The notes under the pieces: generated by a model
Told to the model about the DNA's origin: nothing
Database searches by the model: none
Seen by the model: the letters and a program-made list of their open reading frames with translations, nothing else
In this document: positions 1 through 36,059 of the stretch, piece by piece
Layout of the letters: each line of letters starts with the position of its first letter
Numbering within the stretch: the first letter of the stretch is position 1
Translations under genes and position numbers: made by a program
From: Methylocaldum sp. 14B
Lineage (GTDB): Bacteria > Pseudomonadota > Gammaproteobacteria > Methylococcales > Methylococcaceae
Direction of reading: 5' to 3'
Assembly (NCBI RefSeq): GCF_002005105.1
Contig: NZ_MSCV01000011.1
Coordinates: 1 to 64,000 of the forward strand
Length of the DNA stretch: 64,000 nt

Positions 1-10
1 AAGGGCTTTG

Positions 11-128
11 TCGGAAGGGCAGCTCTGGCGCTCCCAGAGATGCCGTTTGCGATTGGAAGGGACCGACTAAAGGTCCGTTTGCGATTGGAAGGGTCGCGAC
101 TAAAGCGACCGTTTGCGATTGGGAAGGG
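11..128. repeat. Hairpin-linker repeat array A
   Basis: Three copies of a linker GTTTGCGATTGGAAGGG (45-61, 77-93, and a variant with one extra G at 111-128) alternate with inverted repeats. The first hairpin (18-28 with 34-44) has loop CGCTC and one G-A mismatch. The second (60-64 with 72-76) and third (92-97 with 105-110) share loop GACTAAA but have different, still complementary stems. The same design recurs at 35922-36004. The array lies beyond the 3' end of fdsD and may begin before the window. Seen directly; function unknown. Conceptual peptides read through it are repeat artefacts. Confidence 0.85.
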
Positions 129-266
129 ATTGCCGACCTACGTTCTTCCCGCCCCACACGAATCCGTACACCGGGATGAAAAACGCTCTAAGCGTGTAAA
201 CCGGCTTGGACGGCGGCCCGAAATGCCAGAAAAGCATTTACAGGCCTGATTAACAATCGGCTAGCT

Positions 267-35867: not shown

Positions 35868-35921
35868 CATGGTCCGCATCGAATAGTTCGATAAATTGTC
35901 TCGAATTCGATCTAATGAAAG

Positions 35922-36004
35922 GGTTATCCGGGCGCTCCCCGGATGACCGTTTGCGATTGGAAGGGCGGCTTCGGCGCTCCCGAAGACGCCGTTTGCGATT
36001 GGAA
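35922..36004. repeat. Hairpin-linker repeat array B
   Basis: Same family as the array at 11-128. An 11-pair hairpin (35922-35932 with 35938-35948, one G-U pair) with loop CGCTC is followed by linker GTTTGCGATTGGAAGGG (35949-35965), a second hairpin (35964-35974 with 35980-35990, one G-A mismatch, the same loop) and a partial linker GTTTGCGATTGGAA (35991-36004). The stems of the two hairpins differ completely yet stay paired. It lies 56 nt before the TelA-family start codon, in the probable leader or promoter region. Confidence 0.85.
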
Positions 36005-36059
36005 TGTGAATTCGCCTTTTACTCACTACTTTTTACCGTATTTTCATCCGGAGAAAACC

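Follow-up and report, generated by a model that had tools for sequence, protein, structure and literature searches.

How a row of hairpins can keep its loops and linker while its stems change, and what such a row represents, is the question raised by the left end of the window (the whole 64,000-nt stretch of Methylocaldum sp. 14B DNA analyzed here). A sequence-only reading had described a hairpin array with changing but complementary stems at this place, and the array is real: five head-to-tail units of 42, 32, 34, 42 and 42 bp, of the form AAG-hairpin-GTTTGCGATTGG, lie over two loci, including two more units at 35919-36002, where the same system had been noticed. The 17-nt linker of that reading is also present, at 45-61, 77-93 and 111-127 in the first array and at 35949-35965 and 35991-36007 at the second locus, and is better divided into the unit end GTTTGCGATTGG and the start of the next unit, AAGGG. 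The third linker reads GTTTGCGATTGGGAAGG, its reported extra G being contributed by the flanking REP. The features are as follows.

1-14, plus strand: remnant of a GTAG-type REP palindrome left of the first array; the window starts inside the palindrome, and the left context is the same at other host array sites (L001, L029, L109).
15-56, plus strand: unit A, 42 bp, AAG + 27-nt hairpin at 18-44 (loop CGCTC) + GTTTGCGATTGG; from linker search and fold.
57-88, plus strand: unit B, 32 bp, AAG + 17-nt hairpin at 60-76 (loop GACTAAA) + GTTTGCGATTGG; from linker search and fold.
89-122, plus strand: unit C, 34 bp, AAG + 19-nt hairpin at 92-110 (loop GACTAAA) + GTTTGCGATTGG; from linker search and fold.
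123-141, minus strand: right arm of the REP palindrome that hosts the array, GTAGGTCGGCAATCCCTTC on the minus strand; such REPs surround the RAYT gene at G000:C21:80217 (G000 being the host).
35919-35960, plus strand: unit D, 42 bp, hairpin at 35922-35948 (loop CGCTC); from sequence and fold.
35961-36002, plus strand: unit E, 42 bp, hairpin at 35964-35990 (loop CGCTC); from sequence and fold.

Two main hairpin types are thus found, one of 27 nt with an 11-bp stem and the loop CGCTC, the other of 17-19 nt with a 5-6-bp stem and the loop GACTAAA. The first array (15-122) sits within a GTAG-type palindrome, the right arm of which is GGGAAGGGATTGCCGACCTAC. With up to three mismatches, the linker matched five times in the window, against a mean of 0.19 in shuffled sequence. 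Folded as RNA, the plus strand of both regions was more stable than all 200 shuffles (z of -3.06 and -3.01), while the minus strands were weaker (z of -2.26 and -1.70, with 5 and 13 of 200 shuffles equally good).

These units are probably very small, non-autonomous mobile elements of the form AAGGG-stem-loop-stem-CC-GTTTGCGATTGG, 32-42 bp long, moved by a putative trans-acting enzyme which would read their fold and join them at GG. What is observed is that units are dispersed with constant ends, nest in each other, stand in arrays that turn over, keep their fold and are missing from one clean empty site. The fact that the stems change yet stay paired suggests that this DNA is mobilized via its folded shape.

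Dispersal was clear in the host, a methane oxidizer, where 250 copies of the linker (at most two mismatches) were found in the 5.62-Mb genome, against none for the reversed control. The stricter pattern GGAAGG-N13..28-GTTTGCGATTGG occurred at 240 places in the host and, among 311 genomes of the order, at 393 places in 11 genomes, with a single reversed-control match in all. These places were distributed as 240 in G000, 61 in G003, 20 in G002 (placed in the host's own genus), 19 in G030, 17 in G001, 14 in G005, 13 in G017, 5 in G009, 2 in G037, and 1 each in G006 and G016. The linker is thus far from confined to the two window loci, being dispersed genome-wide in the host and present in ten further genomes of the order. 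In a sample of the class, the pattern was found in one of 369 genomes, the host itself. A scan for exact 17-mer matches in named genome contigs returned 30 stretches, with units on contigs labeled Methylococcaceae bacterium isolate 8, on a MAG labeled Methyloversatilis universalis and, as a single unit, in a Sulfuritalea MAG; in most of the other 17-mer matches printed, no hairpin was visible by eye. The family is centered on Methylococcaceae. These distribution figures come from the pattern searches and not from a covariance-model search of 398 genomes of the phylum, which found the host only and was a poor test, as 15 first-look candidates were scored per genome. One 321-base array had no match in the plasmid and phage collections, and no description of this unit family was found in the open-access papers searched.

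The parse of units with distinct contexts gave 215 units, 149 with 27-nt and 66 with 19-nt hairpins, including 86 different 27-nt sequences; it sought these two lengths only, so that 17-nt units fall outside the count, and allowed up to two linker mismatches, the 19-nt set containing a few evident false calls. Both ends were highly constant, as GGAAG preceded 192 of the 215 hairpins and the exact 12-nt linker was present in 201. Covariation was evaluated on 77 chosen hairpins of the 86, nine being set aside (three led by CAAAC, one whose lead was shifted, and five picked by hand without a strict rule); an alignment of 13 short units, one row of which was badly placed, was excluded from the counts. 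Standard pairs occupied 93.0% of the 847 stem cells, against 71.1% after shuffling and 32.5-52.4% when the arms were slid by 1-3 columns. Double-sided changes were seen in 9 of the 11 stem pairs, and the covariation score reached 0.629, against 0.202 for shuffled and at most 0.126 for slid stems. Two measures were weaker: the number of double-change pairs was matched by 15 of 500 shuffles, and that of further pair types by 33 of 500. The compensatory change proposed from the window alone is thus confirmed on these 77 hairpins, whose stems do covary.

Diversity was considerable, with 86, 18 and 14 distinct hairpins in three length classes, and single-linkage clustering gave 15 stem classes at two differences and 9 at three, merging into 2 at five. 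In a set of 86 27-nt hairpins slightly different from that of the parse, mismatches clustered at stem positions 3 and 5, with G.A at position 5 in 24 of 86. What varies is the stem sequence; pairing and the stem length class are constant, and so are loop and linker, which are nearly invariant among units. Covariation in a DNA palindrome can have its source in hairpin-templated repair as well as in selection, and thus does not by itself prove an RNA. A role as functional RNA hairpins (for stability, termination or protein binding), for which the units would be retained, with spread as a secondary matter, would be in line with the conserved pairing and with the mismatches on the linker strand: among 86 distinct 27-nt hairpins, G.T outnumbers A.C there by 34 to 18, as it might if this strand were the folding one. 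This excess is, however, weak (p ~0.04 by a hand normal approximation over cells that are not independent) and falls to 36 against 22 (p ~0.09) when the three hairpin classes are taken together, while array content differs between relatives. Moreover, for the structured-RNA option of the sequence-only reading, nothing points to a known RNA: the only Rfam match at gathering score in the window was a tRNA, and the array loci L154, L119 and L143 gave sub-threshold matches only. We consider this explanation quite unlikely.

Mobility was indicated by comparison with relatives. In a dnaE2-like gene of the host (L024, contig C5, ~127.8 kb), 126 bp of units stand in frame and add 42 residues; this insert has three linkers, one of its units being nested and inverted, and its outer arms are mismatched. 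The same site is uninterrupted in four relatives (G003, G001, G002 and G017); for no other unit array was a clean empty site with its two flanks found. The best NCBIfam match of the gene was error-prone DNA polymerase, with a score under the full-length cut-off, as only part of the gene was read. Arrays also turn over. Between L018 of the host and L150 of G003, an alignment of 653 bp at 95.9% identity runs through most of the array; L018 continues with exactly one additional 42-bp unit, after which both have AAAGGATTCCCGACC. Beyond it the sequences diverge, so that the evidence of orthology stops short of the right flank. Both flanks align between L100 and L141, with different units inside, whereas at L123 the left flank alone aligns with G003, which has no array there. 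At the place orthologous to the D-E pair, which has a histidine kinase gene on one side and a TelA gene on the other, both flanks align, and G003 has no recognizable unit, G001 degenerate nested units and G002 other sequence. Unit content likewise varies among copies of a recurrent host REP site. The mobile palindromic element, which the sequence-only reading had listed beside a structured RNA and a protein-binding repeat, is therefore supported by genome-wide dispersal, by the empty site in orthologs and by arrays that differ from one relative to another.

Many copies are carried by larger elements, and independent insertions are therefore far fewer than copies. By eye, arrays at L008, L025, L124 and other loci seem to be carried in larger elements with TAGAGCRTTTTC-like ends, and the mobile DNA seems layered, a larger element containing a REP which contains a unit. 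The 42-bp length preserves the reading frame, and in-frame 42-bp units were also present in a sigma-54 activator (L126), in a TraW/TrbC-like gene (L092) and, in G016 (L233), within a long ORF named helicase-like by eye. Six-frame openness, observed in 64 of 86 42-bp units against 10% of mononucleotide shuffles, was given no evidential weight, since the linker is common to all of them.

The junctions allow two readings: a GG is followed by an inserted AAGGG-hairpin-GTTTGCGATTGG, or it is preceded by an inserted GGAAGGG-hairpin-GTTTGCGATT. The GG is common to both and does not tell which strand moves. After removal of similar flanks, 33 sites were kept from 281 site rows, with flanks of GG|A: G at -2 in 33 of 33, G at -1 in 30 and A at +1 in 27, the GG being partly built in, as the site caller requires three of five matches to GGAAG. 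At the second window locus, the left neighbor is GA and not GG. No target duplication was seen at the dnaE2-like empty site or at the 33 junctions, where only the ambiguous GG, with the following A, is shared. By eye, REP loops and unit loops are among the insertion sites, as are palindromes resembling CCCTCTCCC-GGGAGAGGG and CCGGCA-GGGA-TGCCGG; indeed, several arrays contain units inside unit loops, in opposite orientation. Rejoined sites showed a modest preference for foldable sequence, with 22% of 27 sites (6 of the 33 being left out) at or below -8 kcal/mol against 8% of the background (p 0.02).

Such a shared GG could also be microhomology, and hairpins might spread without any dedicated enzyme, through template switching during replication, pairing then being kept by hairpin-templated repair. 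Chimeric arms and deletion derivatives do exist, for example GGTCATCCCAGGACGGCC in L018 and L150. Template switching should nevertheless yield ragged ends, while both ends are alike in nearly all parsed units (the 192 and 201 of 215 given above), which makes this explanation unlikely.

In the mobile-element reading that we favor, a trans-acting enzyme would recognize the folded strand by its loop, stem geometry and linker rather than by stem sequence, and would join the unit end to GG. Since each unit ends in TTGG next to AAGG, an inserted unit would recreate the GG|AAGG target, allowing arrays and inverted nests to grow: new units landing at the end of a unit would build head-to-tail arrays by self-targeting, and those landing in a unit loop, the complement of which is GGAG, would give nested inverted units. 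Were the unit to circularize, the joint would read GATTGGAAGGG. Tentatively, and with somewhat less than even confidence, the enzyme may be a single-strand transposase of HUH/Y1-like type, with pairing maintained by selection on the fold and perhaps also by a repair of one arm for which the other arm of the hairpin is the template. The replication-strand bias expected of such a transposase was absent, 28 arrays of G003 being split 16 to 12 by hand count.

An IS607-like serine recombinase, which would use GG at the element ends and in the target without duplication, was also considered. The unit junctions look like those of published IS607 insertions, which, according to passages of PMC6188088, occur at GG with (G)GG preferred, have GG termini and leave no duplication; these elements encode their own transposase, unlike the units (PMC6188088). 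Of 38 family genomes, however, 4 (G011, G013, G021 and G026) pass the cut-off of the curated TnpA model NF033518, none of them with the unit pattern, and the 10 unit-bearing genomes searched (all but G037) do not; the host has one 30-bit match, against a cut-off of 110 bits. A length of 32-42 bp also seems short for the complexes that would form at the ends, and we know of no IS607 enzyme that reads hairpins. A recombinase of this type is therefore very unlikely to move the units.

With the enzyme named, our preferred explanation could take the form of an unusual REP family mobilized by a RAYT of the lineage (a REPtron), in which GGAAG 5' of the hairpin replaces GTAG. Units and REPs are both small, high-copy palindromes with a conserved 5' motif, and the host has seven Y1/RAYT genes. 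RAYTs act on folded single strands, TnpA-REP recognizing the fold, and cut 5' or 3' of the REP (PMC8266576, in part), and published REP families differ in stem (PMC3733652, in part). By contrast, the GTAG/CGTC tags are absent from the units, and three of the RAYT genes adjoin other repeats, by eye: C21:80217 is flanked by GTAGGTCGG REPs, C4:82438 by GTAGGGCGGG repeats and C31:23280 by GTAGGCTGGG-like hairpins, while those on C1, C48 and C5 have no obvious repeat in the printed flanks. The nearest units are one nested pair ~200 bp from the C4 RAYT, on a single side, and sampled stretches of G017, G009 and G030 bear units and no GTAGGTCGG[CG]AATCC REP. Nor did Y1_Tnp presence track the units, being found in 35 of 38 family genomes, unit-bearing or not; G016 has one unit and no Y1 match. 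This form of the explanation is possible but doubtful. As owners of the units, the RAYTs were rejected: in the flanks fetched for the seven host Y1_Tnp genes (~3 to 14 kb per side), no gene was bordered by units both left and right, and three adjoin other repeats.

Two other repeat types were also rejected. CRISPR does not fit, as the "spacers" are hairpins and the copies are dispersed. Integron attC sites carry GTTRRRY/RYYYAAC boxes, which by eye do not fit the units.

The units were also compared with known elements. REPs and REPINs of the GTAG and CGTC super-families are, in the relevant passages of PMC3733652, short high-copy palindromes which are mostly intergenic and also intragenic; the units are short and high-copy too (240 pattern places in the host). 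The CGTC families are described there as being without a dedicated transposase; for the units, too, the searches revealed no mobilizing enzyme. The same source reports, in the part concerned, REP subsets with different stems, REPs inside other palindromes and some families without transposase (PMC3733652). The claim that the units are unlike known REP families therefore holds for the tag and for the RAYT, none of which was seen with units on both sides, and less well for the stem subsets and for the location inside palindromes, which some published REPs share. Directly at the hairpin, the GTAG/CGTC tag is replaced by GGAAG in the five preceding bases (192 of 215) and by a 3' tail GTTTGCG; the whole tail GTTTGCGATTGG, the head-to-tail arrays of 32-42 bp and the insertion into their own loops also set the units apart from REPs.

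The SMR-A/PATE elements of Haloquadratum walsbyi are likewise short, transposase-free and without target duplication; SMR-A inserts into palindromes, namely the near-terminal ones of other mobile elements, and SMR mobilization is called enigmatic (PMC3119063, in the sections concerned). SMR-A is, however, ~110 bp long with terminal inverted repeats, and PATEs have near-terminal palindromes of IS605 type, whereas in the 32-42-bp units one hairpin takes up most of the length (PMC3119063, in part). As in IS200/IS605-derived PATEs, target duplication is absent and the flank motif fixed, and the units may descend from an IS200/IS605-type element; by eye, AAAC (or AAG) did not clearly pair, as a guide would, with the CC/GG site, and an unsystematic look revealed no full-length IS605-type element with unit ends. 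The GC clusters of yeast mtDNA (PMC4478555) and the Volvox organelle repeats (PMC2670323) are, in the passages concerned, short palindromes too, which move or have spread by a mechanism yet to be proven; among the Volvox repeats a loop recurs and copies lie inside each other (PMC2670323), and the mobile GC42 cluster is 42 nt long, like the 42-bp unit (PMC4478555). GC42 nevertheless uses an AG target and has conserved stems, in contrast to the GG target and diversified stems of the units, and both organellar groups differ from them in sequence (PMC4478555, PMC2670323, in part). MITE features are lacking, as by eye the ends AAGGG and GATTGG are not inverted repeats, and at the junctions the GG alone is shared, with no target duplication. 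The units thus have traits in common with each known kind, differ from REP, MITE and IS607 elements in one or more of the defining features tested for each, and are kin to short palindromic mobile repeats. Whether they form a distinct class of minimal mobile DNA of 32-42 bp is rather doubtful; in such a class, a putative recombinase would read fold, loop and linker and not stem sequence, a GG|A core regenerated by the unit would give self-targeted, cassette-like arrays and nests, and the 42-bp form would enter genes in frame.

If the mobile-element reading is true, the units would rank, to our knowledge, with the smallest mobile DNA and would be a clear example from nature of a stem whose fold, and not sequence, is kept; they would also be a tractable equivalent, in bacteria, of the organellar palindrome clusters. 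The ~100 natural hairpin variants with fixed loop and linker indicate which parts a recognizing enzyme could need, and the mobile units add 14-residue modules to reading frames.

Several neighboring repeats were observed along with the units. L129 (contig C21, 79.8-83.9 kb of the host) contains a RAYT gene bordered on either side by many GTAGGTCGGNAATCC REPs, and is the REPtron of the REP family that hosts many unit arrays. L013, L121 and other loci contain additional families of palindromic repeats, among them CCGGCAGGGATTGCCGG and GTAGGATGTGCCGACGAAGG..., the latter hosting units. At L154:963-1346 (G003), a unit array adjoins a regular repeat with 69-70-bp spacing and weak, sub-threshold matches to CRISPR direct repeats. 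Finally, the G003 sequence that follows the divergence of L150 also stands after a REP in L269: the two GTAG-type REPs end in CCGACC, the following sequence is identical, and in L269 it leads into an ORF which by eye resembles an IS110-type transposase, so that it is probably an insertion sequence targeting REPs.
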